Positions 1 to 64,000 of a stretch of 64,000 bases of DNA are shown one piece after another. A program made the translations under genes and the position numbers. Within the stretch, counting starts at the first letter, position 1. Each line of letters begins with the position of its first letter. The notes under the pieces were generated by a model, which worked only from the letters and a program-made list of their open reading frames with translations, ran no database searches and was not told the origin of the DNA. Origin of the DNA: Crossaster papposus (lineage: Eukaryota > Echinodermata > Asteroidea > Velatida > Solasteridae); NCBI GenBank assembly GCA_037893245.1, contig JBAIAA010000445.1:186001-250000 (forward strand), read 5' to 3'.

Positions 1-840
1 CATTCGGCGTAAAGCTACGGAAGTTCATAATGGACATTACATATGTCTCCATTCGCAGGAAAGAATATTATCCTGTGAAATATTCACATAATTTATTTGC
101 AATCGAGGTGTATTTATTTTGGATAATAGCTTTTCATGGCAATTATCTCTCCTTCCCACGGTTATTAAAGGGTGGGAAATATGTTAAAATATAATAATCT
201 GAAATTGAAATCAGTTTGGTAACAAACAATTATTTTTTACAACTAGATGTTTCTAAAAAATAATATATAATAATAAAATTGAAAGTTTATTTCCAAATGG
301 ACCATTCCATGAAGTTGAGATACAAAGTGTGACATTTTGGTATATTTCTAGTTTCATGCCATATATCAACTAAATCATTTGACTATTTATTCCCGGTTGT
401 CTTGGACGTTGGACAGATTTGGGCAAGTCTTGTACCATTCAAACATTGGTTTCCAGAGTAATTGGATATTTAATAAAAATATGTAGGTATCACAAGTACA
501 ACGCGTCTCTTTCACATCTTTTTGTCATGTTGCAAGATGTATTGCATAAACCTCGGCTTATTATTACATGACCACAAAATGGAGCCATACATGTTTTTAT
601 AAAGTTATTGCATATCAATTACAAGGGATATGTTGAAAAATATGTTCCAACATAACACATGTTACACTAGGGTACACCATGTTCAATTGTTTATAGTGAC
701 CGATTCACTTGTATTTCAGGTAAGAGTTACATACACAAATATAATTACACAAAGATAATAAACTGAAATAAATCAAAACATCTCCCGAGAATGTCAGCAT
801 CAACACTGTATAGCAACCGCTCCAAATAACACCAGACATG
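1..840. repeat. Start of higher-order repeat unit 1 (intergenic)
   Basis: No gene is visible. This stretch is nearly identical to 47250-48110 and clearly homologous to 23770-24480; the middle copy lacks about 300 bp in the part corresponding to 510-700. It opens with a motif (GCGTAAAGCTACGGAAGTTC) that also occurs in the 5' flank of most TRIM copies, e.g. 7434, 12517, 36217 and 60567. The three copies are spaced about 23.8 and 23.5 kb apart. Confidence 0.7.
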
Positions 841-889
841 GCAATTACAATCCCAATGGTTTTTTAAAAACTAAAACCGAATATAATGG

Positions 890-1850
890 GGGCACAATTA
901 ATGAACACCATTTGGACAACGGGAGTCAAAAGGTATCCCCAATGTGATTTCTATAGATGAATAGGTCTCCACCAAAAATTTCACGAAATAGATTTTTGAA
1001 TTTTACTCAAACTTCCCACAAACTAGGGTCAGGATGTGAGTTAGGGTTGCTGTTTGGGTATGGGTATAATATAGGGTATATTTTGTTAAAATTTCAACCT
1101 AGGAATTTAATTGTGGTTGAAATAGAAGCATTTTGAAAAAGGTGCTCGACTTTCTAACCATTTTGAAAACGAGACCAAAGAGATGTTTCCACAAGGATAC
1201 ATCGTTGAGGATGGTTGTTCCCGGAATCTTAGGAATTGTTTTCAGGTATCTGAGGCATGTGTCAGGTAGCAATACACTGTTAAAATGTTGTTGGTTAAAC
1301 TTGTTTAACTTACCTCAGTTGTCCAAGTGCCCTGCTTACACAAATGTTGTCCGCTGCTTAAACAGGATTTGTGAACAACCCCGGTCGTTGTCTTTGTTTA
1401 AACAACTTTTTAAACAGTGTTTAAACAGTGTATATGGCCAATAGTCGAGTGTGTATGGCATAGGGGCAAGAGGGAGTCTCTTCTACCGTGCTGGGGTATT
1501 TGATTTGTCGTATACGAGGCACTAAGAGCTTTCACTCGTTGGAAAAAGATACAATACAATATAGACCCTATAGGCATTATACCCCAACCCAAACACTAAC
1601 CCTTACTCACATCTCAATCCGTTTTAAAGTAATTTGAGTAAAATAAAATAACACATTTTCTGAAGGATTTCTTTTGAAGACCTACTAATCTATAGAAATT
1701 ACCCTGTGGAGACCCGCCTCCCATTATCCCCATGGTGTTTAGGTTTCGACAGGGTACCAAATTTAGAAACCTCCACACCCGTGTGCGTAAACACCTTTTA
1801 TCATGGACCTCCTGTTGTCCCTCTTTTGTTTGTAGTACTTTAACGTTTTT
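890..1850. repeat. Inverted pair of a GTCTCC-rich intergenic repeat
   Basis: The segment at about 890-1240 and that at about 1555-1850 are diverged inverted copies of one family, recognisable by a TTAGGGTTAGTGTTTGGGT-like core and a GGAGACCTACTAATCTATAG-like end. They are separated by about 300 bp of TTAAACA-rich sequence that recurs at 25086-25290. Other members lie at about 12960-13340, 32750-33130, 54410-54800, 61190-61440 and 62485-62836. No coding potential is seen. Confidence 0.55.
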
Positions 1851-1859
1851 GGAAGGTCT

Positions 1860-2560
1860 TTCACCCGTTTTGTACACAAATATATAATGGCTGTGTACAC
1901 GAAACAAACATATATAGGGCAACATGCAGAATGATGCACATCATACCTGGAGAAACACAAAAGAAAAGTCATGTACAGAGTTCTGCGGGAACAACACAAG
2001 GAGGATTAGGCTGAAGGGTTAAAGGGAAAGGTCAGTGTGGGTAGGATCAAAGAAATAACTAACAAAGAAGTGTTGATAGGAGAAATGTAAAGGGGGCCTG
2101 GGGGGGGGGGGGGGGGGTTAGGACAATAGACAAGGGGAAACCCAAAAGAGTGAGAACAAATAAGAACAAACTGCTGGCAAGGATTAAATCTGAAACAGAT
2201 GGCAAATGGGAAGAAACAATAGAAGTTAATCATTTCCTAGTTGAATGTTGAGCCCATGTGGTTGAATAGTCCGAAGACGATTTATCCTAACTTTCTCCCG
2301 GCTGAGATGGACTGATTCCTTCCGATGGCCAAGCAATTCTATGCCCTGTAGAATCATATCAGAAATGCAATGGTTAGGCTGGTTGAAGTGATGACCGACG
2401 GGGTGTCTAGTTTCTTGGTGTTGACAGTCGATCGATGACCGTAGAAACGCTTTTTTAGGGCATTTTGGTCTCTCCGACATACTGAACTCCACAAAACCTG
2501 CAAGGAATTAGATATACGACATTGTTCGAGCCGAAGTTCCCAGCTTGGATACATCTCCTT
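1860..2560 (-). mobile_element. Penelope-like element remnant with GIY-YIG endonuclease end
   Basis: On the minus strand, 2461-2520 reads VVYLIPCRFCGVQYVGETKM, the start of a GIY-YIG nuclease domain of the kind carried by Penelope-like retroelements. Further on, after a stop and frame changes, it reads KKRFYGHRSTVN and PVGHHFNQPNH, and ends with an RINRLRTIQPHGLN motif. The frame breaks show it is dead. The tail to about 1860 matches the 3' parts of the copies at 19711-20600 and 45025-45930. The family call rests on motifs I recognise, not on a search. Confidence 0.6.
2100..2117. repeat. Homopolymer G tract (18 nt)
   Basis: An uninterrupted run of 18 G. It lies in the Penelope-like remnant at the place where the two plus-strand remnants carry runs of C (20141-20179 and 45459-45475), so it is a feature of the element, read here on the other strand. 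Confidence 0.9.
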
Positions 2561-2639
2561 TCATCCAGCACGGAACTTCCAAGTGCAGTTCCATATGTGT
2601 GGTTTGCTAGATCCACCTCCAGGAGTCTGACTCATTTTC

Positions 2640-3981: not shown

Positions 3982-5889
3982 TCACATCCGCTGCAAAATC
4001 TTGATGGAATGTCTGTCTGCAACAACCATGTCGCCAGTGGGAGTATAGGCCATTTGTATCGGATTGTACAGCTTTTCGGCTACAGTTCCTACCATTGATC
4101 CATTTGGGTCGTACTGCTGTATTTTTGCGGTTCCCCTGTCACCGAGATGAACAGCAACATTAAAGTAGCCGTGCCTGTCAAAAAAGATCCCAGTTGGACT
4201 CGCCGATTTTTTGTCCACAAGTGTATTGATACTAAACAGCTCATTGCCCTTGAGGTCTACGCAGGAGAGGGTTTTATTTTCGTAGTTAGAAATGAACAGG
4301 CGCTCCATATTATCCATCGCTAAATAAAATGTCACAGTTTCATTTGGAATGGTTGCTACTAACGAGCCATCAAGCAAATGCACAGAAACAACTTTCCTGC
4401 CAAAGTCAGCCACAGCTAGTCGTTCTCCAGCTGCGTCTAGCGCAATAGCGGTTAACTGACTTGCCTCTTTCTTAGATGGTGTGAATTCGCAAATCAACTG
4501 AAGATTGCAGTCAAAAACCTTCACTTTATTTTTGTCCGTGACAAAAAGCAGATCATCTGAGGTGATAGCAATGCCCAAAGGAGCGTCCAGCTGATGACCG
4601 CTATGAACGGCCGAAGTTTTGAAAAGTCCAGTGGAGGTAAACATCGATAGTCGATTCAGCTTTGTGTCTGTCACAGCAATGTCCCCGTTGCTGAAACATG
4701 CAACACCGCTGGCAAATTGGAATTCCCCATCACCGTTTCCTTCCTTGCCAAACTCTTCCTTCATTAGCCACTTCTCTTTGAGCAATATCTTTCCAAGATC
4801 CTCTTCACAGACGACATCTTGACATTTGACCCCAATGAACGAAAGATCCACCTTTGCCGGCTCGCACTTGAGCTCCTTCTGGAATTCCAAGTTGTGCATC
4901 ACCTTTGGTTTGAGTTCCAAGAGCTTGAAATCATCGACTTGACTCATCAAGTCGTTTACGGCCATTACGATCTGATCTGCGCGTTTTATCTGGTCACAGT
5001 TGCGCCTGAGCGCCTTTTCGTACTCGCTGTCTGTCTCCTGACCGATTTTGTTGACTTGTTCAGTGATTACCTTTGCTTTGCTTCTGATTTTTGCAATTTC
5101 TGCCTCCGCTTTTGCATAAATATCACTGCAAGCCCGAGCCAGTTTCGTTTGCAATCTAGTCCGTGCATGTCTGATGGAGTCTTCGTTTGATGCAAATTGC
5201 CCCTTGTCTTTCTGGAACCTTTTCAATATGTTCTTGACACTCTCACGGAATGATTCGATAGCATCCCCGATATCAATCAACTTATGTACCGCTGTTCGGT
5301 GCTCAGTTGCAGCACAAATGGCGCAAACCAACACATCACAAGTCTCACAGAGAACGCATATGGCCTGATCACTATGCTTTCTACATGATTTTGGTGATGT
5401 GCCAGTCTTGGTAACATCTGTTGGTGAAACCGTCGATTTGTCCAGGTCATTTACTGGAATGATGCGATGGTCTTTGGTGTACCTCAGAAATCCATGTGCC
5501 TCTTGGCATTTCTTGCAGATATTATCCTTGCAGTCAAGGCATCTTGACACAGCCTCGTTTCCTTCTTCGCAGGATTCACAAGTCGTAACAGTAGTAGTTA
5601 CTTTTCCTAATAAATGCTCTTGTTTGTTTATCTCATCGACAAGAGATATCAGAAAGAAGCTAGAAGACAGACTCTGCACTCCTTCCTCAGGAACGTTCGT
5701 CTCTCTCCTGCAGACTGGACATGCTATCTTCGCCGTCTTTCTCGTCACCATCTTACCTAGACAGTTCAGGCAAAAGCTATGAAGACAGTCTAACATCTTT
5801 GGATCCTTGAATCGAAAGTAGCAGATCGGACATTCCAGATGCCCCTGGCTAATTGTGTCCAACACGGTTCGGGCTGCAGCCTCCGCCAT
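3982..5889 (-). CDS. TRIM-NHL protein, copy 1 (RING E3 ubiquitin ligase)
   Basis: Predicted 635-residue tripartite-motif protein of the NHL class; by family a RING E3 ubiquitin ligase. A C3HC4 RING is complete at C20, C23, C35, H37, C40, C43, C57 and C60. B-box 1 spans about 104-141 and B-box 2 about 169-202 (CRKH start, HRTAVH end). Residues about 205-340 are charged and heptad-like, as expected of the coiled coil. Residues 384-635 form six NHL-type blades ending KILQRM. The start chosen is the ATG at 5889, with A at -3 and G at +4. An open frame runs further upstream but crosses a pyrimidine tract and AG and has no ATG, so it is probably intronic. No intron interrupts the coding region. Target protein and biological role are not evident from the sequence. 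Confidence 0.9.
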   Translation of the reverse strand: MAEAAARTVLDTISQGHLECPICYFRFKDPKMLDCLHSFCLNCLGKMVTRKTAKIACPVCRRETNVPEEGVQSLSSSFFLISLVDEINKQEHLLGKVTTTVTTCESCEEGNEAVSRCLDCKDNICKKCQEAHGFLRYTKDHRIIPVNDLDKSTVSPTDVTKTGTSPKSCRKHSDQAICVLCETCDVLVCAICAATEHRTAVHKLIDIGDAIESFRESVKNILKRFQKDKGQFASNEDSIRHARTRLQTKLARACSDIYAKAEAEIAKIRSKAKVITEQVNKIGQETDSEYEKALRRNCDQIKRADQIVMAVNDLMSQVDDFKLLELKPKVMHNLEFQKELKCEPAKVDLSFIGVKCQDVVCEEDLGKILLKEKWLMKEEFGKEGNGDGEFQFASGVACFSNGDIAVTDTKLNRLSMFTSTGLFKTSAVHSGHQLDAPLGIAITSDDLLFVTDKNKVKVFDCNLQLICEFTPSKKEASQLTAIALDAAGERLAVADFGRKVVSVHLLDGSLVATIPNETVTFYLAMDNMERLFISNYENKTLSCVDLKGNELFSINTLVDKKSASPTGIFFDRHGYFNVAVHLGDRGTAKIQQYDPNGSMVGTVAEKLYNPIQMAYTPTGDMVVADRHSIKILQRM

Positions 5890-5902
5890 CGTGATTATGA
5901 TT

Positions 5903-6173: not shown

Positions 6174-6920
6174 TTTGCTTTATCCTTTCCATGGTCAAAA
6201 TGACACCTTCCGAGTAAAAACAAATGACATTTTTCTCGTTCATTTAGACCGAGAAAGCGATATTTAATCGGTCGCAAAATTACCGAGAAGGAATCAATTT
6301 TTACCCGGAAATGAGGTGAGCATAGCATGTAGAAATGGCGATTGTGTATAGTTATGGGCCTTTAGTCATGACCAAATAAATTCGAGTCACAAGAGTTTTT
6401 TATCATTCCAAGGGGACTTGATCAACCTATTTGTAGGGTTACGACTGAATCTAAAATTATATTTGCTTCTATCCTTTCCATGGTCAAAATGATACTTTTT
6501 GGTCCAGAAAGTGACATTTTTTACCCAATAATGGGAGTCAACAGACTGCATTGTACATGTACATGTACATTACATTATACAACCACGGGGCGTCGGAACA
6601 TAGGCCGGGGCGTCGGATCATCAGGGGGCGTCGGAACATAGGGGCGTCAGAACATAGGGTCGTTGGAACATAGGGGTGTAACCAGCCATTACTATAGGTC
6701 ATACTAAAACAAAAACAAGTATTCACTCTGAGTCAGAGTGACAAATATTCACTCTGACTCAGAGTGAATATTTGTTTTATCGGCTTCATGGTCAAATCGA
6801 CAATTTTTCGAGTCAACAAAAATGACATTTTGCTCGGTCATTTCGATTTAGAAAGTGACATTTTAGTAATTTTGACCGCAAAAAAGTTTCCTTTTTTTCA
6901 CGGAAATTGGCAGAGCAACT
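6174..6920. repeat. Cluster of element B copies with a degenerate minisatellite
   Basis: Three copies of a 90-150-bp repeat (about 6174-6323, 6462-6544 and 6771-6920) start TTTGCTTTATCC-like and end GGTAGAGCAA-like, i.e. with short inverted ends, around a CATGGTCAAAATGACAC core and a CGAGAAAGTGACATTTT motif. Between the second and third, 6587-6680 holds about five imperfect units of a GGGGCGTCGGAACATAG-type repeat. That repeat is the short counterpart of the large minisatellites at 21538 and 46266. Confidence 0.55.
6721..6769. promoter_or_regulatory. 49-bp palindrome with two AP-1-like sites
   Basis: Two 17-bp palindromic arms (CACTCTGAGTCAGAGTG and CACTCTGACTCAGAGTG) form a larger inverted repeat. 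Each contains a consensus-like AP-1 heptamer: TGAGTCA at 6729-6735 and TGACTCA at 6755-6761. It lies about 840 bp upstream of the ATG of copy 1. Regulatory function is inference only. Confidence 0.3.
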
Positions 6921-6929
6921 TGGTTCAGA

Positions 6930-7560
6930 TTTAGGATCAGTTATTGTGTTCTACCTTGCAACAGACTAGCTAATCGTTCCTTATCTTACGAATCAGGCAT
7001 GATTTCTAATTGCTATTACATAAAAAAATACTCGATCACATTGAATCTGTGCAACATGTCATGTGTTTGTACAATGTACTCACTTTTTAAAACTGATTCT
7101 TCAGTTGGATGGGGTAGTTCAACCACATTCCGGTGCGTGTAAACACAAGAATGGCCTTCCACCAGTCCAGGTACCGCCGTTACTTTCGAGCGGCGAAAGG
7201 GGATCACCTAATATCAGAACATGTCAGAACACCCATTGACTACCGCAGCTTCCTGTGTACGTGTATTTGTGTAACAACTGCGCAGTACATGTATTTGATG
7301 AGAAGGTACAGCACAATTTACTTAATATAATGGGGGGAAACCAGTTACTATTTTTAACTCGCGCAAGTAAAGGGGCAGCGCTAATTGCTCCTTCCTTTCA
7401 GTCGACAATGTGCACACACAGTACAGGCCTTCGGCGTAAAGCTACGGAGGTTCATAATAGACATTACATATGTCTCCATTTGCAGGAAAGACTATTAATA
7501 TTATCCTTTTTTGTCACGTAAATGAGCCACAATGTCCTTGATTCAAGTTGTGAAATAAAC
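6930..7560. repeat. 5'-flank repeat block of copy 1
   Basis: No gene. The block is homologous to 22100-22560 and 46740-47350. Shared marks are TTGAATCTGTGCAACATGT, a CTTCCACC.GTCCAGGTACC segment and the GCGTAAAGCTACGG motif at about 7434. Confidence 0.55.
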
Positions 7561-9770
7561 AATAGTACAATATTACACGAATGCCTTTGTTAAAAGAAAA
7601 GTCTTAAGCTTATTCTTAAAAACCGAAAGAACCTGAACAGACTGAATCTCATGCAACTTGTACATCGTTACATTTAATGGAATACAAATTGTTGACACAA
7701 ATGTGTATGAGGCCGCCAAAAAGGTTAACAATGCCAAAAATCGTACAGATTCGCCTTGGATGCCCCAGAGTATCTGCCTTTTTAATTGATCAATGCCACC
7801 TGTGAACCACAATTGTGGACCGCCTAGCTACGAGTTGTCCCGCGTACGAGTTGACCAATCTGCATACGAGTTGACCAATCTGCATACGAGTTGACCCCGT
7901 GAATAGAGCCTGAAGCTAGCTGATGGCGCAGTTTCGGACCCCTCGAATAGGTAAATCAGCGTGTAAAAGTCGGGGTTTCTACAATTATTTCGGTACATTT
8001 ATTTCTTTAAGACAGTCCTTCTTTGAGAAGGCCTTTGTAAATTTGTTAGGGTGTAGTATCTCAAATTGATTAAACTGAAAAATCGCATTACGTTAAAGAG
8101 AAATATCGAACCAAAAATCGACCTCTCACTTACAAAAATCTTTATGTGGACTCATGGAAGTAGAAACACTTGTACAAATAGGCCACCAGCCTGCGGTCCA
8201 TAAATCCAATGATCGAGAAGAGTAATGCTCATAGCGATTCTGGCAAGGTACCCTGTATTTGTTTAGGTAAACTAATGTTCACCTGTAAAATAACAAACCA
8301 TCGCCGTATTTCAGTTTAACGGATTTTGGATGTCAAATTACAGTAATGTGAGCTGGAAAATATCATCACGATTCCATAAAGTTTTCGTGTTGTAGTGTTA
8401 ATTTATACAGATGACATAAATTTACAAAATCACTTTCTCAAAATACAACATTTTGTGTAAATATACATCAACACATACAAAGTGTTGTTACCATACCTCC
8501 AAATGGGCACTTTGGGAGACAATCCCATAGAGTCGTGCACAATCTTTATTGTAACCTAACCCGTTTTTACCTGGAGCTTTTTCCACGAAATTTCATATTT
8601 ATGCTATTTAGACCCAAATCTGTCTTCTCCGAGCAAAAATAACTCCCAAATATCGTTTTGTGGGGTAGCTAGACACTTAGGGAGACACTGAAATGTCTCC
8701 CTAAGTGCCACTGTCTCCCAAGTGAATCAAAACTATCGCTAATTTACAGATAATCTTATGCCAACAAAAATCTCATTACGCAGAAACTGATGACTATTTC
8801 GATTAAGGAAATTTGTAGTACATGTATGTTAAATTGGCTTAGTAAAAAAAATGCACGCTCTTGATCATAATGTGTTATTTATTCGAACAATTCCACTATA
8901 AATTTCAGTAATAAATTTGAAAAATTAGATCTTTCGTATTTAAATATTGAAATTATTTCTGGCAAACTGTGACTTCATCATGACATGAAAAGATCATGAA
9001 TATACATCAAAATCGTCACTTTTTTGACCTCGGCCTGTACCTCAACAACAACTACTGCATTCAAAGTTACCATACCACAATGTTCTTTTATTGTCCTAAA
9101 TTTGAGAAGCACAATTTTACCGAGATGACTTTTCTTTACTAATGTCTTGAACTATGATATCACTGAATGCAAGGACAAAATTGGTGTTTTTTCTACAAAC
9201 GAGGCGCACTATTAGCAAAACTAAATACAGTGTACCTATAATTGTAGAAGAGTGAAAACAAATCTATAAGCCTTGTGTAAAAAAAACATGCTTTGATATT
9301 TTCGGAGTTAAATTTGACTTTTTAGGATATGTTAATTGCTTTCTGGTGGCTAATTTCTTTGTTCGCTGTCTCTCACAATTGCCTTTTCTTTAGAAATATA
9401 ATAGCGATAACTGGACATAAGTCCATACACGGACATCACTAATTGTTCCCTACTTTGAGCTATCAGCCATGGATCGGAAAGCAATAACATATCCCAAAAA
9501 GTCAGATTTAGCTCAGAAAATATAAAAGCATTTGCTGGGAAAACATTTTTTCAGACAAGTCTCATAGTGTTTTTGCACTGGGTGCCAAGTGGTGTCCGTG
9601 TATGGAATTATTTTCCCAGGAACCAGCCACTTAAATTGAAGTCAGATAAAATGGCGTCTGAAATTGATTACCCCAAATTGCTTTTTCTTACTGAGAGGCC
9701 CAGAGGGGGTACTTGTGCACAAAGCCCACAGCAGATGTACTTTGGTTCAAGTAAGCAGCTGGGCCTCGAA
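7560..9770. repeat. Gene-free 3' flank of copy 2 (type II)
   Basis: AT-rich sequence with no supported gene. The part at 8290-9760 is homologous to 38910-40010, the 3' flank of copy 6 (for example CCATCGCCGTATTT and the region around ACAACATTTTGTGTAAATAT). It differs from the type I flank found at copies 1, 3, 4, 8 and 9. Three near-direct repeats of ACGAGTTGACC lie at 7845-7892. Confidence 0.5.
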
Positions 9771-9776
9771 GGCAAT

Positions 9777-11672
9777 TCACATCCGCTGCAAGATCTTGAT
9801 GGAATGTCTGTCTGTAACAACCATGTCGCCAGTGGGTGAATAGGCCATTTCTATCGGATTGTACAGCTTTTCTGCTACAGTTCCTACCAGTAATCCATTT
9901 GGGTCGTACTGTTGTATTTTTGAGTTTCCCCTGTTATCGAGATGAACAGCTACATTAAAGTAGCCGTGACTGTCACAAAGGATCCCGGTAGGACTCGCCG
10001 AATGTTTGTCCACAAGTGTCTTGATAGTGAACACCTCATTGCCCCCGAGGTCTACGCAGGAGAGAGTTTGATTTTTGTAGTTAGGAATGAACAGGCGATC
10101 CATATTATCTATCGCTAAATAAAATCTCACATTTTCATTTGGAATAGTTGCTACTAACGAGCCATCAAGCAAATGCACAGAAACAACTTTCCTGCCCCAA
10201 TCAGCCACAGCTAGTCGTTCTCCAGCTGCGTCTAGCGCAATAGCGGTTAACTTACTTGCCTTTTCCTTAGAGGGTGTGAATTCGCGAATCAACTGAAGAT
10301 TGCCGTCAAAAATCCTCACTTTCTTTTTGTCCGTGACAAAAAGCAGATCATTTGAGGTGACAGCAACGCCCCGAGGAGCGTCCAGCTGATGACCGCTATG
10401 AGCGGCCGAAGTTTTGAAACGTCCAGTGGAGGTAAATAGCGATAGTCGTTTCAGTGTTGTGTCTGTCACAGCAATGTCCCCGTTACTGAAACATGCAACA
10501 CCGCTGGCGAATTGGAATTCCCCGTCACCGTTTCCTTCCTTGCCAAACTCTTCTTTCACCTGCCACTTTTCTTTGAGCAATATCTTCCCATCTTGACATT
10601 TGACCCCAATGAACGAAAGATCCACCTTTGCCGGTTCGCACTTGAGCTCCTTCTGGAATTCCAAGTTGTGCATCACCTTCGGTCTGAGTTCCCAGAGCTC
10701 AAAATCATCGACCTGACTCATCAAGTCGTTTACGGCCGTGACAATCTGATCTGCGCGTTCCATCTGGTCACGGTTGCGCCTGAGCGCCTTTTCGTACTCA
10801 CTGTCTCTCACCTGACCGATTTTGTTGACTTTTTCGGTGATTACCTTTGCTTTGCATTTGATTTTAGCAATTTCTGCATCGGCTTTTGCAGAAATATCAC
10901 TGCAAGCCTGAGCCAGTTTCGTTTGCAATCTATTCTGTGCATGTTTGATGGAGTCTTCGTTTTTTGAAAATTGCTCTTTGCTTGTCTGGAACTTCTTCAA
11001 TATGTCCTTGATACTCTCACGGAATGATTTGATGGTGTCACCGATACCAATGAACTTATGTTCCGCTGTTCGGTGCTCAGTTGCAGCACACATGGCGCAA
11101 ATCAACGCATCACAAGTCTCACAGAGAAAGCATATGGCTTGATCACTATGCTTTCTACATGATGTGGGTGATGTGACAGTCTTGGTAACATCTGTTGGTG
11201 AAGCCGTCGATTTGTCCACGTCGTCTGCTGGAATGATGCGATGGTCTTTTGTGAACCTCAGAAATTGATGTGCCTCTTGGCATTTCTTGCAGATGTTCTC
11301 CTTGCAGTCAAGGCATCTTGACACGGCCTCGTTTCCTTCTTCGCAGGATTCACAAGTCGCACTAGTAGTAGTTACCTTTTCTAATAACTGCTCTTGTTTG
11401 CTTATCTCATCGACAAGAGATATCAAAAAGAAGCTAGAAGACAGACTCTGCACTCCTTCCTCAGGAACGCCCGTCTCTCTCCTGCAGACTGGACATGTTA
11501 TATTCGCCCTCTCTGTCGTCTCTTTGCTCACCATCTCCCCCAGACAGTTCAGGCAGAAGCTATGAAGACAGTCTAGCATCTTAGGATCCTTGAATCGACA
11601 GCAGCAGATCGGACATTCCAGGTGCCCTTGGCTAATTGTGTCCAACACGGATCGGGCTGCAGCCTCCGCCAT
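9777..11672 (-). CDS. TRIM-NHL protein, copy 2
   Basis: Predicted 631-residue TRIM-NHL protein, intact from the MAEAAARSV start to the KILQRM end. RING ligands C20, C23, C35, H37, C40, C43, C60 and C63 are all present, and both B-boxes are complete. Compared with copies 1, 3 and 8 it lacks seven residues (VVCEEDL in copy 1) in the linker just before the propeller, an in-frame deletion that leaves GVKCQDGKILL. The ATG at 11672 has A at -3 and G at +4. The open frame upstream is a probable intron. The B-box linker is of the DVDKSTASPTDVTK class shared with copies 1, 4 and 8. Downstream flank is type II. Confidence 0.9.
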   Translation of the reverse strand: MAEAAARSVLDTISQGHLECPICCCRFKDPKMLDCLHSFCLNCLGEMVSKETTERANITCPVCRRETGVPEEGVQSLSSSFFLISLVDEISKQEQLLEKVTTTSATCESCEEGNEAVSRCLDCKENICKKCQEAHQFLRFTKDHRIIPADDVDKSTASPTDVTKTVTSPTSCRKHSDQAICFLCETCDALICAMCAATEHRTAEHKFIGIGDTIKSFRESIKDILKKFQTSKEQFSKNEDSIKHAQNRLQTKLAQACSDISAKADAEIAKIKCKAKVITEKVNKIGQVRDSEYEKALRRNRDQMERADQIVTAVNDLMSQVDDFELWELRPKVMHNLEFQKELKCEPAKVDLSFIGVKCQDGKILLKEKWQVKEEFGKEGNGDGEFQFASGVACFSNGDIAVTDTTLKRLSLFTSTGRFKTSAAHSGHQLDAPRGVAVTSNDLLFVTDKKKVRIFDGNLQLIREFTPSKEKASKLTAIALDAAGERLAVADWGRKVVSVHLLDGSLVATIPNENVRFYLAIDNMDRLFIPNYKNQTLSCVDLGGNEVFTIKTLVDKHSASPTGILCDSHGYFNVAVHLDNRGNSKIQQYDPNGLLVGTVAEKLYNPIEMAYSPTGDMVVTDRHSIKILQRM

Positions 11673-11685
11673 CGTGATTAGGATC

Positions 11686-11783: not shown

Positions 11784-11932
11784 GGGTGCACACTCTCCCT
11801 ACAAATAGAGCTGTAATTAACTCTTATCTTGTGTCTTGTTTTGTTGCCATTATAATCTTGTCGCCTGTAATGGTTACAAGATTATAGACAAAACGGAACC
11901 AATAAACACAGCCCTGTTTGTAGGGCTAGGTG
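11784..11932. mobile_element. Hairpin element A upstream of copy 2
   Basis: Same inverted-repeat element as at 5992-6150, starting 112 bp upstream of the ATG. Its left end is around CCCTACAAATAGAGCTGTAA and its right end around CACAGCCCTGTTTGTAGGG. Confidence 0.6.
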
Positions 11933-16468: not shown

Positions 16469-16524
16469 CTTAGGATCATGCTGCAGCCTCCGCCATCGTG
16501 ATTATGATCCTATTATAATGACAA

Positions 16525-49526: not shown

Positions 49527-49539
49527 GAGGCTAATGCAG

Positions 49540-52858: not shown

Positions 52859-52871
52859 CGTGATTATGATC

Positions 52872-53149: not shown

Positions 53150-54860
53150 AATTTATATTTGCTCTATCCTTTCAATAGTGAAAATGACACCTTCCGAGTA
53201 AAAACAAATGACCTTTTTCTCGTTTATTTTGACTGAGAAGGCAACATTTTCTCGCTCGCAAAACGACCGAGAAAGTGTCAATTTTTACCCGAAAATGGGG
53301 AGGTCATAGCATGCGAAAACGGCAATTGTGTGTAGTTACGGGCCTCTACAGTTATGATCAAATAAATTCGAGTCACAGTTGTGGGTTTTTATTTTATTTT
53401 AAAGTGACTTGATCAACCTATTTGTAGGGCTACAGTGCACACGGGAGACTGAATCTGAAATTATATTTGCTTCTATTCTTTTCAATATCGTGGTCAAAAT
53501 GACAATGTTCTTTTTGAATGAGACATTTCTTATGGGTAGAGCAATTATATACATGCAACCACCCAAAAGCTAATCGTTCTAACGAATATCGGGCATGTTT
53601 CACTTAATAAAGAAATCAATTACATTGAATCTACTCAACATGTACAAGGTACTCACTTTTCAAAACTGATTCGTCAGTATGATGGGGTCTTCAGCCACAA
53701 ATATTTAGCACCAGCAATCCCGCGGAAGAATGGCAAAACTACTTCGAACGGCTAAATGTGTGATCAAGCCGAGTAGTACTGCTTCACTCAGCATCGAGGT
53801 GATAATCAAGTTTGTGTCGCACAACATATTAACAAATAGGCCTAAATTCCTTTAATTCAAGTTGAAGGTATTGGCCTACTTCCACAGGCGCCATTTGTCT
53901 GTGTGTTTGTGCAACAACTGCGCAGCGTTCGGGGTGGAAAACCAATTGTATTTGTAGTTTCATTGGAAAACCAGTTGCTATTTTTAACTCTATAGTTGAA
54001 AGTTCAGACGACTGGCTCTCCGCGTAAAACTACGGAAGTTCATAATGGACAATACATATCTCTCCATATATGCAGGAAAGAATAATAATTATCATAGGAA
54101 ATATTCACAGAATTCATGTGCAATCGAGATGTATTTAATTTGGATAGAGACGTGTTACAGGTAGAAAATGGTGTAGAAAATAAATTGTTTAAATGTAATA
54201 ATATGAAATTAAAATGAGTTTGTGATAACAAATTATTATTTACAACTAGATGCTTCAAAAAAACGAGTTGATTTTTAAATACAATAAAGTGAAAATAAAG
54301 TTTAAAAACGTGTACGTTGTTTTATTTAATAAAGATTAATAACCGTGATGATTTTTCAGATTTTCAAATGAATTTATCGCGTTACGCCGGCCGGCATTCG
54401 TTGGAAAATGATACAATACAATATAGCCTATATTATACCCTAATCCAAACACTAACCCTAACACACATTCTATCCCTAGTTATTAAGTAATTTCATTAAA
54501 ATACAAAATTATGTCGTGATTTTTGTGTGGAGACCTACTAAACTATAGAAATTACCCTGTGGAGACATTTTGACTCCCATTGTCTCCATTGGGTTCAGGT
54601 CTCCACAGGGTACCGAATTCAGAAACCCACACACCCATGTGTGTGAACACTTTTCATCCTGGACCTCCTACTGTCCCTCTTTTGTTATACTTGAACGTTT
54701 TTAGAAGGCCTCCTTCGATTTTCAATCATGGACTTTATGTCAATTGTGGACCCTATTGTCCTCTATTGTTCAACGTCCACTATTTGAATGCGGATACAAA
54801 CCCATACATACTACATACTACATACACAAATAGTGATTGAATAGACAATTCCTGAACTTG
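53150..54860. repeat. Intergenic repeat block upstream of copy 7
   Basis: Element B copies lie at about 53152-53300 and 53465-53545, then the block matching 12050-13430 and 60150-61440. No gene. The site at about 54424-54440 (TATAGCCTATATTATACC) is an unoccupied equivalent of the hairpin insertion at 61028. Confidence 0.55.
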
Positions 54861-55306
54861 GTTCAGCTAGCGAGACCCCAAACAGAAACACAAATTAAAA
54901 AAACAAGAGCTGTTTCGCCAAGTATCAAACCTTTTTGTCACGATGACGTAATCGGGTATCATGTGATGTCAAATCAAGATGCAAATTTGAAGGCCCTATT
55001 TCTAATGAATTACAATTCCGATTGGGTTCAAACTTGGTATGTAGGTATATCGGAATGTGTTAAAGATACACATTGAGGTAACGTCACGATGACGCCATCG
55101 TGTGATTGATTATCATAATGATTTTATTAAGTTTTTGGATCTTTAAGCTCTTGGAATTACAGTTTCAGTAGATATCAGATTAAGATAGAAAGAATATGTT
55201 TTGTCATCGAATAAACTACTCCAGGGCCGATGTCGTCTATGGGACGCCGTAGGACGCTCTTTAGCGGCCACATGTTCCACCGACTCAAGCAGGACCGCGT
55301 TAGTAT

Positions 55307-56349: not shown

Positions 56350-56867
56350 CACTTTTTTTGAGTTGCCTTCACTCTGAAAAACTAAATTTCACTCTTGTTG
56401 GATTGGTTTTATAAGAGATTCACTCTTTTTGAGAGTGGGCTTTTTACTTTATACATTCAGAGAGGCAACTAGTTTGTAGACATCGGTTGGGTCGGGAACA
56501 AGACGAGTCTGAGCAGTTGCCAGCACCTCACACATCAAGGATAATAATCTCTGAGAGTTTAGGTTCACGATTCAGTGATAAATCTCGGCACGCACTTTAT
56601 GGTTAGCCTAATTAGCCCCATGCCAATATATGTTGTCTGTACGATCAATTAATCTCCGGCTACATCACCGTTGCCAAACTGCATGAACGAAGCCAAAGAC
56701 GAAGACGAAGCTGGGATTTAGAAAACGGCCTTAAATTGAAGTAGGGTAAGATGCCGTCTGATGACTCCCCCAGTTCGCATTTTCTTTCCGCTGAGGGGGT
56801 ACTTGTGCACAGAGCCCATGGAAGATGTAGTTTGGTTCAAGTAAGCAGCGGGGGCCTAGCAGGCAAG

Positions 56868-58784
56868 TCACATCCGCTGCAAGATCTTGACGGAATGTAA
56901 GCTTGCAACAACCACGTCGCCAGTGGGTGTATAGGCCATTTGTATCGGATTGTACAGCTTTTCGGCTACAGTTCCTACCATTAATCCATTTGGGTCGTAC
57001 TGCTGTATTGTTGCGGTTCCCCTGTCACCGAGATAAACAGCAACATTCAAGTAGCCGTTACTGTCACAAAAGATCCCAGTTGGACTCGCCGATTTTTTGT
57101 CCACAAGTGTATTGATACTAAACACCTCATTGCCCTTGAGGTCTACGCAGGAGAGGGTTTTATTTTCGTAGTTAGAAATGAACAGGCGCTCCATATTATC
57201 CATCGCTAAATAAAATGTCACATTTTCATTTGGAATGGTTGCTACTAACGAGCCATCAAGCAAATGCACATAAACAACTTTTCTGCCCCAGTCAGCCACA
57301 GCTAGTCGTTCTCCAGCTGCGTCTATCGCAATAGCGGTTAACTGACTTGCCTCTTCCTTAGAGGGTGTGAATTCGCGAATCAACTGAAGATTGTTGTCAA
57401 AAACCTTCACTTTCTTTTTGTCCGTGACAAAAAGCAGATCGTCTGAGGTGACAGCAATGCCCCGAGGAGCGTCCAGCTGATGACCGCTTTGAGCGGCCGA
57501 AGTTTTGAAACGTCCAGTGGAGGTAAATAGCGATAGTCGTTTCAGTGTTGGGTCTGTCACAGCAATGTCCCCGTTGTTAAAACATGCAACATTTCCGGCC
57601 AATTGGAATTCGCCGTCACCGTTTCCTTCCTTGCCGAACTCTTTCTTCACCTGCCACTTTTCTTTGAGCAATATCTTCCCAAGATTCTCATCACTGACGA
57701 CATCTTGACATTTGACGTCAATGAACGAAAGATCCACCTTTGCCGGTTCGCACCTGAGATCCTTCTGAAATTGCAAATTGTGCATCACCTTCGGTCTGAG
57801 TTCCAAGAGCTCGAAATCATCGACTTGACTCATCAAGTCGTTTACAGCCGTGACAACCTGATCGGCGCGTTTCATCTGGTCACGGTTGCGCATGAGCGCC
57901 TTTTCGTACTCGCTGTCTCTCTCCTGACCGATTTTGTCGACTTGTTCAGTGATTACCTTTGCTTTGCTTCTGATTTTAGCTATTTCTGCCTCGGCTTTAA
58001 AAAAAATATCACTGCAAGCCTGAGCCATTTTCGTTTTCAATCTATTCCGTGCATGTTTGATGGAGTCTTCGTTTGATGCAAATTGCTCTTTGCTTTTCTG
58101 GAACTTTTGCAAAATGTCCTTGACACTCTCACGGAATGATTTTATGGCATCCCCGATACCAATTAACTTATGTTCCGCTGTTCGATGCTCAGTTGCAACA
58201 CACATGCCGCAAATCAATGCATCACAAGTCTCACAGTGAAAGCATATGGCTTGATCACTATGTTTTCTACATGATTTTGGTGATGTGACAGTCTTGGTAA
58301 AATCTGTTCGTGAAGCCGTCGATTTGTCCAGGTCATTTACTGGAATGATGCGATGGTCTTTGGTGTACCTCAGAAATCCATGTGCCCCTTGGCATTTCTT
58401 GCAGATGTTCTCCTTGCAGTCAAGGCATCTTGACACGGCCTCGTTTCCTTCTTCGCAGGATTCACAAGTCGCACTAGTAGTAGTTACCTTTCCTAATAAC
58501 TGCTCTTGTTTGCTTATATCATCGACAAGAGATATCAGAAAGAAGCTAGAAGACAGACTCTGCACTCCTTCCTCAGGAACGCCCATCTCTCTCCTGCAGA
58601 CTGGACATGTTATCTTCGCCGCATCTGCGTTCTGTTTGCTCACCATCTCTCCCAGACAGTTCTGACAGAAGCTGTGAAGACAGTCTAGCATCTTAGGATC
58701 CTTGAATCGACAGAAGCAGATCGGACATTCCAAATGCCCCTGGCTGATCGTGTCCAATACGGTTAGGGCTGCAGCCTCCGCCAT
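56868..58784 (-). CDS. TRIM-NHL protein, copy 8
   Basis: Predicted 638 residues from MAEAAALTV to VKILQRM. RING complete (C20, C23, C35, H37, C40, C43, C60, C63), both B-boxes complete, coiled coil and six blades intact. The first ~150 residues and more than 2 kb of 5' flank are almost the same as copy 4. The last two to three blades match copy 1 best (TFYLAMDNMERLFISNYENK and LVDKKSASPTGIF). Unlike copy 4 it keeps the CRKHS segment of B-box 2. The ATG at 58784 has the same strong context. Confidence 0.92.
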   Translation of the reverse strand: MAEAAALTVLDTISQGHLECPICFCRFKDPKMLDCLHSFCQNCLGEMVSKQNADAAKITCPVCRREMGVPEEGVQSLSSSFFLISLVDDISKQEQLLGKVTTTSATCESCEEGNEAVSRCLDCKENICKKCQGAHGFLRYTKDHRIIPVNDLDKSTASRTDFTKTVTSPKSCRKHSDQAICFHCETCDALICGMCVATEHRTAEHKLIGIGDAIKSFRESVKDILQKFQKSKEQFASNEDSIKHARNRLKTKMAQACSDIFFKAEAEIAKIRSKAKVITEQVDKIGQERDSEYEKALMRNRDQMKRADQVVTAVNDLMSQVDDFELLELRPKVMHNLQFQKDLRCEPAKVDLSFIDVKCQDVVSDENLGKILLKEKWQVKKEFGKEGNGDGEFQLAGNVACFNNGDIAVTDPTLKRLSLFTSTGRFKTSAAQSGHQLDAPRGIAVTSDDLLFVTDKKKVKVFDNNLQLIREFTPSKEEASQLTAIAIDAAGERLAVADWGRKVVYVHLLDGSLVATIPNENVTFYLAMDNMERLFISNYENKTLSCVDLKGNEVFSINTLVDKKSASPTGIFCDSNGYLNVAVYLGDRGTATIQQYDPNGLMVGTVAEKLYNPIQMAYTPTGDVVVASLHSVKILQRM

Positions 58785-58796
58785 CGTGATTATGAT

Positions 58797-58818
58797 CTTA
58801 ACGAGAAAGAACAAAACA
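58797..58818 (-). other. Putative 3' splice site of a 5'-UTR intron, copy 8
   Basis: Identical to that of copy 4, 12 nt before the ATG. Confidence 0.5.
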
Positions 58819-58899
58819 ACTTAGGAATACTCAAAGTGTGCGACAGGAAGGGGGCGGGGGCTGAGGTTGGGAGGTACCATGGAGCTGTAAAATGGAGAA

Positions 58900-59060
58900 G
58901 GGTGCACACTCACCCTACATATAGGGCTGTAATTGGTTCTTGTCTTGTGTCTTATTTTGTTGCCATTATCTTATCTTGTCTTGTCGCCTGTAATGGTTAC
59001 AAGATTATAGACAAAAGAGAGTCAATAAACACAGCCTTATTTGTATGGCTAGGTACACAC
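58900..59060. mobile_element. Hairpin element A upstream of copy 8
   Basis: Nearly identical to 29868-30028. A right-half copy follows at about 59242-59328, as in the copy 4 flank. Confidence 0.65.
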
Positions 59061-59086
59061 TATGTCAGATTGATGAAGTGATATTT

Positions 59087-61020
59087 GCTTTATTTTTTCC
59101 ATGGTCAAAATGACACCTTTAAAATAAAAACATGACCGAGAAAGTGTCCATTAGTACCCGGAAATGGGTAGAGCAAATAATTATATATAGGTTCAGAATC
59201 AGGATCAATTAATCTGACCCAGAGTTTGTTCTACCAACATACTTGTCTTCTCGCTTGTAATGGCGACGAGATTATAGACAAAAGAGAGCCAATAAATACA
59301 GCCCTGTTTGTAGGGCTAGGTACACTAGGTTAACCTGATTATATTTGCTCTATCCTTTTCATGGTCAAAATGACACCTTCCAAGTAAAAACATGTTCATT
59401 TTGACTAAGAAAGCGACATTTTCTAGGTCGCAAAATTACCGAGAAAGTTTCAATTTTTACCCGGAAATGGGGAGAGCATAGTATGCGGAAACGGCGATGG
59501 TGTATAGTTACGGGCCTCTAGTTATGATTAAATAAATTTGAGTCACAGGTGTTTTTTTCAATCCTTGCACTCAAAATTATGATAAAACGTGTAATTAGCA
59601 CTAATTAAAGACCTTCTTAAGTGTACTTAGCACCAATTATATTGTTCTTAAGTATACAAATCCTATTCAGTACACGATAAACTTTCGACTCATGAAGAAA
59701 TTATGTTTGCACTCAAGATTATGAATAAATCAAATGTTAAGGGGTCTGTCAGGGGCTCCCCTCCACCCAACGCACCACTCGCCAAACTTAAGAAAACCCA
59801 TTTTGCAGTTGTCCCAGTCACCCTAACACATCCCACGCTTCAAACCTTTTTCATTAAACCTGGCTGGGCTCCCGGACTATGGCTTTATCAACCTATTTAG
59901 GGTTAGAGTGCACACAGGATTCTGAATATGAAATTATATTTGCTTCTATCTTTTTCATGTTCAAAATAACACTTATTTTTGACCGAGAAAGTGACATTTT
60001 TACCCGGAAATAGGTAGAGCAAACAGACTGCATTGTACATGTACATGTACATACAATACAATCACCCAAAAGCGAATCGTTCTTTTACGAATATCAGGCA
60101 TGTTTACTTTAAAATACTAACCTATTTCACTTATTAAAAAATCATTTACATTAATCTATTCAACTTGATGTACAATGTACTCACTTTTCAAGACTGATTC
60201 GTCATTTGGATGGGGTCTTCATCAGCCACAAATATTAAGCACCAGAAATCCCGCGGAAAAATAATGGCAAAACTACATGTACTTCGAACGGATAAGGCAA
60301 GGTGTGATCAAGCCTAGTACTGTAGTACTGCTTCACTCAACATCGAGGTGATAAAAGGGTTGTGTCGCACAAAATATTAACACATAAATTCTCTTTATTC
60401 AAGTTGAAGGTATTGGCCTACTTCCGCAGACGCCATTTGTCTGTGTATTTGTGCAACAATTGCGCAGCGTTCGAGGTGAAAAACCAATTGTATTTGTAGT
60501 TCCATGGGAAAAACCAGTTGCTATTTTTAACATTTTCTAGTTGAAAGTTTAGACGACTGGCTCTCCGCGTAAAACTGCGGAAGTTCATAATGGACAATAC
60601 ATATCTCTCCATATATGCAGGAAAGAATAATAATTATCCAAGGAAATATTCACAGAATTCATGTGCAATCGAGGTGTATTTAATTTGGATAATAGCTTTT
60701 TATGGCAAAGCATCTTTCCTCTCCACCTTTGAAAAGAGACGTGTTACAGGTAGAAAATGATGTAGAAAAATGTGTTTAAATTTAATAATCTAAAATTGAA
60801 ATGAGTTTGTGATAACAAATTATTATTTACAACTAGATGCTTCAAAAAAACGAGTTGATTTTTAAATACAATCAAGTTAAAATAAAGTTTAAAAACAGCT
60901 GTCGTGTACGTTGTTTTATTTAATAAAGTTTCAAAACCGTGATGATTTTTCAGATTTTTAAATGAATTTATCGCGTTACGCCGTCCGGCAATCGTTGGAA
61001 AATGATACAATACAATAATA
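59087..61020. repeat. 5' flank of copy 8, near-identical to that of copy 4
   Basis: Matches 30052-32760 except for the ~680-bp insertion there. Includes element B copies at about 59091-59180, 59340-59480 and 59938-60025. No gene. Confidence 0.65.
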
Positions 61021-61027
61021 GCCTATA

Positions 61028-61184
61028 AGTGACCCAGCACGAGTAAATGAGACACTTTGAGGCAAAATTGAAAATTGAAATTTTGATCTCATCATTTAAA
61101 GCTAAACAAGCTTTAGATGATGAAATCAAAATCTCAATTTTCATTTTTGCCTCAAAGTGTCTCATTTACTCGTGCTGGGTCACA
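61028..61184. mobile_element. 157-bp hairpin MITE with TA target duplication
   Basis: An almost perfect foldback: it begins AGTGACCCAGCACGAGTAAA and its other end, inverted, is TGTGACCCAGCACGAGTAAA. The arms exceed 60 nt around an AAGC-rich centre. TA flanks both ends (61026-61027, 61185-61186). Three paralogous sites in the window (near 12985, 32768 and 54428) are empty and carry a single TA. TA duplication fits Tc1/mariner-type mobilisation. Confidence 0.85.
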
Positions 61185-61447
61185 TATTATACCCTAATCC
61201 AAACACTAACGCTAACCCACATCTTTAACCCTAGTTTTTAAGTATTTTTTTATAAATAAAACAATATGTCGTGATTGTTTTGTGTGGATACCTACTGATC
61301 TATATAAATTATCCTGTGGGGACTTTTTGACTCCCATTGTCCCCATTGGGTTCAGGTCTCCACAGGGTACCGAAATCAGAAACCCAAACACCCATGTGTG
61401 TGAACACCTTCCATTGTGGACCCCCTACTGTCCTACAGCTAGCGAGA

Positions 61448-61843: not shown

Positions 61844-62867
61844 TGTAACGAAACCCACCTGGGATCCGCCAGTAGACAACCAAACTCACAACAAAAATGA
61901 ATGAAGAAATAAATTATATTTCCCAAAGCCACGTCTTTTGGTTTGTAATTATTATATACAATTTGTTTAGATAGTATGAATTTAAGCAGTATGGATTCAG
62001 TTTGAGAAATGAAAAACAAATATATAATTGCGTGGCATGTTATCCATGCTGGATAACATGCAAAGTTCCACTAAAATGAATACAACCTAACGCTACTAAA
62101 AACTTATACTGCATGTAAATTAAACTTACGTGTACGACACATGAGGCCGGCAACCAAAGACGAAATACACACACGACACAGACACACACGTGTCTCTCCT
62201 ACAGCACCCAGTCACAAGTCCTCAATGATAAGCATTGTGACACAGTTTATATACTGACTAGCCCTCTGTTGACTACAAAGCCAAGTCAGGTGAGGCAGAT
62301 CTACAGGCAATTGTATTGTTCGAGTAATTTACATATAATTAGCTTAACAATTGGGTTAATCCTATTAACGATTACAAGCAACAATTGTGTATTTAGGCCA
62401 GTCCAGGCCAGTAAGAAAAAGAACAAAAGGCCTGTTGGCTGGTAAAAGAACAATCAGCTTGCACTATAGAAAATGGAATTTTAAGCGCATTGTGGTGCGA
62501 AATACCGTACCCTCTGGAGACATGAACACAATGTGTACAATGGAGACAAAACGTCTCCGGAGGGTAAATTTCTATAGATGAATAGGTCTCCATTGGGAAT
62601 TTCACGAATTAGATTTTTGGATTTTGATTAAATTACTCAAAAACTAGGATTAGGATGTGGGTTAGGGTTAGTGTTTGGGTTAGGGTATAATATAGGGTAT
62701 ATTGGGTCGAAATTTCAACCCAGGAAAAAAATTATGGTTAAAATGGGAGCATTTTGAAAAACGTGCTCGACTTTCTAACCATTTTGTACACGAGAACAAA
62801 GCCATGTCTCCACAGTGATACAAAAATGCGAATACGTGTTTACATACATGTACCTGGTTGTGTTACA
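61844..62867. mobile_element. TGTAAC-ended insertion, second copy with a further insert
   Basis: Same flanks and ends as 55307-56044, so it was duplicated together with the gene unit. It lacks a short internal stretch (ATCCTAAAAGAATAAACAAG region). From about 62485 to 62836 it holds a copy of the GTCTCC-rich family (compare 890-1240). The 27-bp hairpin lies at 62035-62061. Confidence 0.45.
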
Positions 62868-63045
62868 CTATGCTGGAAACTTAGCAACTCCGATCAAGCA
62901 ATCAACGCGGCGCCGCATCGTACCCCTAGATGTTCTGAAACCTAAACACAGATAAACTCTCTAAATGTATAACAGTGAAAAGTTCACTCACAACAAAAAG
63001 TGAAATTTAATTTTTCAGAGCAAAAAAAACAACTTTTAAAAAAGG

Positions 63046-63172
63046 AAAATCACTCAAGAAGAGTAACTGTTCACTATTTCGAGGAGCCATAATTATGAAG
63101 GACAGCTCTGTTATAGTTGTTCTTCATATGGTTCCTCGGAAGAGTGAGAATTTACTCTTTTGGAGTGGTTTT
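63046..63172. repeat. Hairpin element in 3' flank of copy 9
   Basis: Same family as 3451-3587. The left arm has AAAATCACTC, the right arm GGAGTGGTTTT. Confidence 0.6.
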
Positions 63173-63581
63173 AACTTTTTTGGAGTTGCCTCTCTGAAAA
63201 ACTCAATTTCACTCTTGTTGGATTGGTTTTATAAGAGATTCACTCTTTTTGAGAGTGGTTTTTTTACTCTTATACATTCAGAGAGACAACTAGTTTGTAG
63301 ACATCGGATGGGTCGGGCACGAGACGAGTCTGAGCGGTTGCCACCTCCTCACACATCAAGGATAATAATCTCAGAGAGTTTAGGCCCCCGATTCTGTGAT
63401 AAATCTCGGTGCGCACTATATGGTTAGCTTATAGTTAGCCAAAGACGCAGACGAAGCAGACGAAGATGCCGTCTGATGACTCCCCCAGTTCGCATTTTCT
63501 TTCGGCTGAGGGGGTACTTGTGCACAGAGCCCATGGAAGATGTAGTTTGGTTCAAGTAAGCAGCGGGGTTTAGCAGGCAAT

Positions 63582-64000
63582 TCACATCCGCTGCAAGATC
63601 TTGATGGAATGTAGGTCTGCAACAACCACGCCACCAGTGGGTGTATAGGCCATTTCTAGCGGATTGTACAGCTTTTCTGCTCCACTTCCTACCAGTAATC
63701 CATTTGGGTCGTACTGTTGCATTTTTGAGTTTCCTCTTTCATTTTGATGAACAATTACATTAAAGTAGCCGTGACTGTCACAAAGGATCCCGGCAGGATT
63801 CGCAGGATTTTTGTCCACAAGTGTCTTGATACTAAACACCTCATTGCCCTTGAGGTCTACACAGGAGAGGGTTTTATTTTTGAAGTTAGGAATGAGCAGG
63901 CGCTCCATATTATCTATCGCTAAATATGTATCCACATTTTCATTTGGAATGGTTGCTACTAACGAGCCATCAAGCAAATGCACAGAAACAACTTTCCTGC
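63582..64000 (-). CDS. TRIM-NHL protein, copy 9 (3' end only)
   Basis: Open frame running off the window edge. The visible part reads from RKVVSVHLLDGSL to KILQRM, about 139 residues, covering the end of blade 3 and blades 4-6. Best match is copy 6 (LVDKNPANPAGILCDSHGYF). The blade-5 loop is its own (VHQNERGNSKMQQYD). No break is seen in the part present. The front of the gene lies outside the window. Confidence 0.85.
   Translation of the reverse strand, partial: RKVVSVHLLDGSLVATIPNENVDTYLAIDNMERLLIPNFKNKTLSCVDLKGNEVFSIKTLVDKNPANPAGILCDSHGYFNVIVHQNERGNSKMQQYDPNGLLVGSGAEKLYNPLEMAYTPTGGVVVADLHSIKILQRM

Follow-up and report, generated by a model that had tools for sequence, protein, structure and literature searches.

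A stretch of 64,000 bp from the sea star Crossaster papposus (contig JBAIAA010000445.1, positions 186,001 to 250,000; hereafter termed the window) contains nine copies of a TRIM-NHL gene, designated A to I, every one of which lies on the minus strand, as judged from a list of open reading frames (ORFs), Pfam searches and an alignment of coding sequences (CDSs). The locus is probably a tandem array of single genes whose copies were shuffled through conversion and unequal exchange. One type of spacer, a long upstream flank termed L, is present in it as three copies and a relic. A preliminary description of this DNA had proposed that the array was duplicated in blocks of three genes, giving a higher-order repeat of about 23.6 kb. 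This proposal is only partly supported: the L spacers do recur in a register of ~23.5-25.9 kb, whereas the genes, the 3' flanks and the ordinary upstream flanks have no period of three.

The window has a G+C content of 40.3%, and single genes are spaced by ~4.9-6.7 kb where large inserts are absent. The nine copies, with the evidence for each, are as follows.

3982-5892, minus strand: copy A, TRIM-NHL (RING, two B-boxes, NHL), open (ORF, Pfam, CDS alignment)
9777-11675, minus strand: copy B, TRIM-NHL, open (ORF, Pfam, CDS alignment)
14651-16477, minus strand: copy C, TRIM-NHL, probable pseudogene (CDS alignment, upstream sequence)
27851-29755, minus strand: copy D, TRIM-NHL, 633 residues, open (Pfam, CDS alignment)
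33673-35580, minus strand: copy E, TRIM-NHL, open (ORF, Pfam, CDS alignment)
40020-41931, minus strand: copy F, TRIM-NHL, open (ORF, Pfam, CDS alignment)
50962-52861, minus strand: copy G, broken chimera (CDS alignment)
56868-58787, minus strand: copy H, TRIM-NHL, open (ORF, Pfam, CDS alignment)
63582-64000, minus strand: copy I, TRIM-NHL, final 138 codons, the rest lying past the window edge (CDS alignment)

A core of ~230-540 bp is found in the visible upstream flanks of A to H and of a further gene off the left edge; it is reduced to 72 bp in the flank of A and present twice in that of E. Two classes of upstream flank are distinguished, namely type I (B, D, G and H, 92-96% alike, with E at 83-85%) and the long class L (C, F and the off-edge gene). 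In gene order, the flanks are relic L (A), type I (B), L (C), type I (D), diverged type I (E), L (F), type I (G) and type I (H).

Tests for a period of three genes

The CDSs have no period of three, which is the first of two findings that tell against a spacing of ~23.6 kb as a repeat of whole units. Identity was 89.5% for in-phase pairs (9 pairs) and 89.9% for out-of-phase pairs (26 pairs; permutation P 0.81), the pair G-I being left out as it has no overlap. Furthermore, a gene tree was built from seven copies (all but G and I) and constrained to the phases (A,D), (B,E,H) and (C,F). It was rejected by the approximately unbiased (AU) test for the whole CDS (p-AU 0.00033) and for four CDS segments (p-AU 4.7e-6, 0.048, 0.0025 and 6.7e-5), and the best trees differ among these segments.

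A bin test scored, for each 100-bp bin, whether the best paralogue lies at a multiple of three copies, the expectation being that of a random partner among those present. Within genes an in-register partner was best in 41.4 of 156 bins (expected 42.0), and in spacers outside L in 37.5 of the 224 bins with a paralogue (304 in all; expected 51.1); in these nongenic bins lag 3 fell under expectation (24.5 against 31.9). Permutation gave P values for a period of three of 0.80 in 3' proximal flanks, 0.86 in 3' distal flanks and 0.79 in type I flanks, and the period was found only in 5' proximal sequence (P 0.036; 0.041 on repeat) and in the core (P 0.022), in both cases via the L class. Periods of two, four and five were also tried in four flank sets and rejected (smallest permutation P 0.087); for the core set, P was computed for period three alone.

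In the reading that we prefer, one ancestral upstream flank would have gained a long interspersed nuclear element (LINE) and a minisatellite and thereby become long. The L flanks would derive from one another; today every third gene (the off-edge gene, C and F) has one on its upstream side, and A has a decayed fourth. Exchange at lags of 1 to 7 copies, by unequal crossing-over and gene conversion, would have mixed the genes and ordinary flanks, so that these would hold no detectable memory of three-gene units. The L sequence may have spread by either of two routes: by way of a duplicated block made up of L plus about three genes, the signal of which was later lost elsewhere, or through conversion anchored on the gene and the core, which border L on both sides. 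The homology of the copies, the lags, the rejection of the three-phase tree and the mosaic pattern are matters of observation, and unequal crossing-over together with conversion is the mode of exchange that we infer.

Several points weigh against this reading. The L flanks stand three genes apart, three in succession. For three L flanks among the nine scored, a spacing of exactly three arises in 3 of 84 placements (3.6%) when the A relic is not counted; any even spacing arises in 16 of 84, and no even spacing is left once the relic is counted, and the placement could be due to chance. Conversion could also have erased the block signal from the genes and spared L, because type I copies hold little partner sequence for it. 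Of the 179 bins in the L flanks, 126 have a paralogue, and in 125 of these the in-register partner was best. This barely exceeds the expected 111.6, a figure that is high because partners elsewhere are lacking for most of the L sequence; the L intervals (1-900, 1880-2870, 16478-24920 and 41932-49530) were chosen after viewing the best-partner painting, and the inserted Z element described below accounts for 21 of the 125 bins. Among the CDS segments, the second rejects the phase tree marginally (p-AU 0.048; p-SH, Shimodaira-Hasegawa test, 0.07). Finally, uneven rates can inflate the concordant-run test for exchange, which is significant for all pairs taken together (P 0.0005), and the single pairs that pass global correction at 0.05 are A/H and, in one of two copy sets, A/D.

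Long flanks and exchange between copies

The L sequences and the relic are located as follows.

1-863, minus strand: core and neighbouring L stretch of the gene beyond the left edge (self-comparison)
16534-24473, minus strand: L upstream flank of C, with LINE piece, minisatellite, inserted Z element and core 23775-24313
41932-48102, minus strand: L upstream flank of F, with LINE remnant, minisatellite and core 47252-47779
6759-7497, minus strand: decayed L relic upstream of A, in the A-B spacer (~73% to 46588-47315)

Three segments that had been named as homologous in the preliminary description are indeed so: 7-839 matches 47252-48102 at 93.0% (with one 400-bp bin at 99.5%), 23779-24313 matches 47252-47779 at 94.0%, and 3-510 matches 23775-24313 at 86.9%. 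The gene-start offsets, counted from core starts at 3, 23775 and 47252, also agree with that account, at ~5.9, 11.7 and 16.5 kb, 6.0, 11.8 and 18.2 kb, and 5.6, 11.5 and >16.7 kb, respectively. The last 72 bp of the A relic are 93% identical to the core of C, and its junction to the core is as in the L flanks.

These matches bear on the alternative of a true higher-order repeat, in which a ~24-kb block of L and three genes was duplicated twice and conversion then homogenized or scrambled the genes and ordinary flanks. We regard this as rather unlikely. The three L flanks are each other's closest relatives (cores 93-95% identical to one another and 76-86% to other cores), the C/F offsets of 23.5-25.9 kb agree with the block length, as tandem duplication predicts, and the gene-start offsets match; the window holds two full L intervals and one open unit. 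However, the order of monomer types differs between the putative three-gene units: A carries an L relic where D and G carry type I, a type II 3' flank is common to B and F, and E is diverged with two cores; of these breaks of register, that by the type II flanks had been noted before. The genes reject the phase tree, and to the right of 48102 no match between the C and F sides is found but an inverted Z element.

The paralogy claimed for 16.5-25 and 42-49.6 kb holds piecewise, for 16.5-22.6 with 41.9-47.2 kb and for 23.8-24.5 with 47.25-48.1 kb, whereas 18.3-19.7 kb has no counterpart. The similarity of C and F drops toward the gene, from mostly 92-97% in 400-bp bins of L to 90.7% in the 5' proximal part and 89.8% in the CDS. 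On the right of the L flanks, past ~24.47 and 48.10 kb, the two sides match only in the inverted Z element and over 133 bp, likewise inverted, between 24785-24913 and 44900-45032. The drop toward the gene and the lack of a match on the right are compatible with either route of L spread and lend no support to an intact block.

Exchange between copies is visible as tracts of >=97% identity, searched in 150-bp windows, at lags 1 to 7; the longest is 855 bp, and totals serve only as a guide as rows overlap. The largest exchange, which is also the strongest match in the window, is out of register.

27621-31111, minus strand: recent D/H exchange tract (with 56638-60144), 93.7% identity at an offset of 29.0 kb, 496 bp exact

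This lag-4 tract is the second finding that tells against whole units of ~23.6 kb. Other tracts occur at lag 1 (F and G, and the spacers to the left of H and I), lag 2 (A and C), lag 3 (C and F, in the L flank), lag 5 (B and G), lag 6 (the off-edge gene and F) and lag 7 (A and H). The CDS of copy A is a mosaic, its closest partner being D, E or G near the 5' end, C in mid-gene (97%) and H at the 3' end (96%), and at its 5' end the CDS of D is 98% identical to that of H. The later exchange that the preliminary description had postulated is therefore borne out by the differing segment trees, by the significant concordant-run test and by the tracts of >=97% at several lags. A self dot-plot, which had been put forward as a check on that description, gives the diagonals at ~5-6.5 and ~23-26 kb that it called for, but also strong ones at ~29, 30.5, 42, 47 and 53 kb.

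The prominence of D/H raises the alternative of blocks of four copies at an offset of ~29-30 kb. Besides D/H as the strongest match, the type II 3' flank common to B and F is consistent with such blocks, and among nongenic bins outside L the best partner lies most often at lag 4 (75.5 of 224, against 54.4 expected). However, this excess comes mostly from the one pair D/H (48.5 bins), the permutation P values for period four in the four flank sets are 0.087, 0.667, 0.191 and 0.105, and the CDSs have no period-four excess (89.5% in phase and 89.9% out of phase), so that blocks of four are improbable. Still less probable, if only slightly, is an assembly artefact in which haplotypes or repeats were joined end to end. 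Arrays are difficult to assemble and nearly identical tracts exist, such as the 496 bp that are exact between D and H; nevertheless, the near-identical tracts are short (at most 855 bp at >=97%) and have many offsets and different neighbours, whereas an end-to-end haplotype would yield one long diagonal.

In addition to the L class, the following flanks and inserts were located.

11930-13858, minus strand: type I upstream flank of B, core 12512-12802
31796-33224, minus strand: type I upstream flank of D, core 32313-32599
36080-38513, minus strand: diverged type I upstream flank of E, two cores (36208-36441 and 38130-38411)
53546-55306, minus strand: type I upstream flank of G, core 54003-54263
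59991-61433, minus strand: type I upstream flank of H, core 60564-60850
8278-9776, minus strand: type II 3' flank of B, with a match in the window at copy F
38901-40019, minus strand: type II 3' flank of F
18238-19773, plus strand: LINE in the C flank, endonuclease end and reverse transcriptase ORF (Pfam)
21541-21919: minisatellite in the C flank, 19-bp unit, 19.9 copies, 99% matches
46262-46589: minisatellite in the F flank, 17-bp unit, 19.1 copies, 99% matches, at a place homologous to that in C
22595-23760, plus strand: Z element, ~1.15 kb, with inverted ends around TGTCATGA/TCATGACA (by eye)
48390-49529, minus strand: second Z element, in reverse orientation on the opposite side of the core

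The LINE of the C flank comprises an endonuclease end (18238-18543, 102 amino acids, below the Pfam cut-off) and a reverse transcriptase (18547-19773, 408 amino acids), of which just the last 20 residues are matched in the F flank. Sequence around the LINE 3' end recurs to the left of A in inverted and direct form (2092-2860, compared with 45119-45887 and 19805-20588). The two long minisatellites seem to have been re-amplified separately, because matches reach 99% inside each and yet the unit lengths differ. The minisatellites of the L flanks and of the A relic (6586-6676) are G-rich, with unit lengths of 19, 17 and 16-20 bp. The two Z elements look like separate insertions outside any duplicated unit, because one lies on each side of the core and their orientations are opposed; the junction at 47200-47280 is uninterrupted. 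Runs of C occur in the flank of copy C at 20141-20186 (46 bp) and 24560-24585 (26 bp).

In copies A, B, C, D, E, G and H, a pyrimidine tract followed by AG and resembling a splice acceptor lies, by manual count, 12-13 nt 5' of the start codon (e.g. near 58787-58805); F differs. This may hint at a noncoding first exon, in which case the L inserts would lie in a 5' intron. Within the 64-kb window, no RNA gene was matched in Rfam at the gathering score and no tRNA was found, and a search for viral-contig relatives gave four pattern matches, none of which was confirmed.

Encoded proteins and the variable propeller face

The array genes are predicted from their sequences to encode TRIM-NHL ubiquitin ligases. 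The single-exon CDS is full and open in A, B, E, F and H, with 631-638 residues. RING is above the Pfam cut-off in A, B, D, E, F and H. Copy C also has PF00097 above the cut-off, despite having lost the first RING cysteines: upstream of 16477 an ATG and six codons are followed by a stop, about 22 codons are gone, and C is probably a pseudogene. The zf-B_box family is above the cut-off in all eight scanned copies (A-H), with two stretches in each of seven copies and one in D, in which B-box 2 is short by five residues. For NHL the whole-protein score is above the cut-off in seven of the eight scanned copies, while no single stretch alone passes 0.001. No Pfam match to filamin or to B30.2/SPRY was found in the scanned copies.

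Copy G has no RING match, and little NHL, in the part scanned by Pfam. Over the first ~438 residues, which contain a frame change near 52694, amino-acid identity to H is 81-84%, and its last ~200 NHL residues (50962-51562) are 43% identical to H and fall in more than one frame when read by eye. This 3' part resembles a much diverged TRIM-NHL relative and may be left over from older members of the array.

An AlphaFold model of the NHL domain of H (e.g. 56871-57698), built from an alignment of seven window sequences, is a six-bladed propeller with a mean predicted local distance difference test (pLDDT) score of 78.9 and a predicted template-modelling (pTM) score of 0.79; the other four models reach 42-57. 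The best Foldseek matches of this model are the NHL domains of TRIM2 and TRIM3 (E 1e-16 to 3e-16; for TRIM2, E 1.3e-16 and template-modelling (TM) scores of 0.76/0.75), followed by Thin, Brat, TRIM71, Lin41 and Mei-P26, and a sequence search of the Protein Data Bank (PDB) gave TRIM3, TRIM71 and TRIM2 as best matches.

Most of the protein appears to be under purifying selection, and one face of the NHL domain appears to vary at a near-neutral rate. For the six copies A, B, D, E, F and H, the mean pairwise ratio of nonsynonymous to synonymous change (dN/dS) is 0.50, rising to 0.61 in NHL. By propeller topology, the D-A and B-C loops of the modelled domain would share one face. In the NHL domains of A-F, H and I, dN/dS is ~0.87-1.06 for the loops of this variable face and ~0.56-0.69 for those of the other. 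Two loop sets were used, one placed by hand after the alignment had been viewed and one derived from AlphaFold strands, with the low-confidence stretch before blade 1 left out, and the statistics treat the copies as independent and without gene conversion. With model-defined loops in eight copies, dN is 0.187 and dS 0.207 in the D-A and B-C loops (68 codons), and 0.081 and 0.139 in the A-B and C-D loops (51 codons); amino-acid change is ~2.3 times faster in the former (permutation P 0.0012 for eight copies and 0.0024 for six). The model-defined D-A and B-C loops have a dN/dS of 0.90-0.94 and a circular-shift rank of 1/245 in both copy sets. With hand placement, dN/dS was 1.06 for eight copies, 0.94 for six (C and I dropped) and 0.87 for five (D dropped as well), with bootstrap intervals within 0.49-1.77 and a shift rank of 1/269 each.

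The B-C loops alone have a dN/dS of 0.87-1.22 (hand-placed) or 1.18-1.31 (model-defined). In blade 2, with five copies and hand placement, loops and the remainder are nearly equal (0.094 and 0.092). The C-D loops of the other face have a ratio of 1.4-1.9 when taken alone, because their dS is very low (0.04-0.05). A loop dN/dS near 1 may reflect either relaxed constraint or diversifying selection.

The D-A and B-C loops form what we take to be the RNA-binding top face of the NHL domains of Brat, Lin41 and Mei-P26. The variable face may accordingly be a recognition surface, and the array would then provide E3 ligases that differ in target recognition. NHL domains are reported to bind RNA on the top surface, and they may bind protein ligands on either face (PMC9070667, PMC8251876).

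Relation to known systems

Satellite higher-order repeats have a multi-unit period superimposed on a unit period. The in-register similarity that defines them is not present in the genes or ordinary flanks of this array. The analysis tells apart two arrangements that look alike in a dot-plot, namely a block repeat and a single-gene array with one evenly recurring marked spacer.

Among gene arrays that evolve by birth-and-death turnover and conversion, tandem duplicates have been described in corals, some of them in groups of two or three, and intergenic conversion in the Argiope silk gene cluster (PMC10236652, PMC9779670). Both resemble the present array in their tandem duplicates; unlike in coral, where conversion is judged to be rare, exchange here occurs at many lags.

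The RING, two B-boxes and six-bladed NHL domain are also those of known TRIM-NHL ligases such as TRIM2, TRIM3, TRIM71, Brat and Mei-P26 (Subfamily C in PMC3503706). The present array differs from these in having no filamin match in Pfam, at least nine close tandem copies and a variable propeller face. Among the matches listed in a search of the open-access literature, none described by title or abstract a TRIM-NHL array with a variable propeller face. The closest analogue is found in families of the finTRIM type: in the B30.2 TRIM expansions of fish (finTRIM, btr/trim39 and trim35), variable and positively selected surface loops are described, and multigene expansion, variable loops of the recognition domain and recombination between copies are common to both systems (PMC3137616). 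However, the recognition domain here is NHL and not B30.2, and the loop dN/dS is ~1 and not demonstrably >1.

The window also offers an example of tandem TRIM-NHL genes whose amino-acid changes cluster on one propeller face. We tentatively suggest, as a possibility short of an even chance, that this invertebrate array is a diversity generator in which RING/B-box, middle and propeller segments are shuffled and the NHL loops of one face diversify. If this is true, it would be the NHL counterpart of the fish B30.2 expansions, in a class of TRIM proteins usually studied for development. If the copies differ in binding specificity, NHL would join B30.2 as a recognition module that animals have multiplied and varied.

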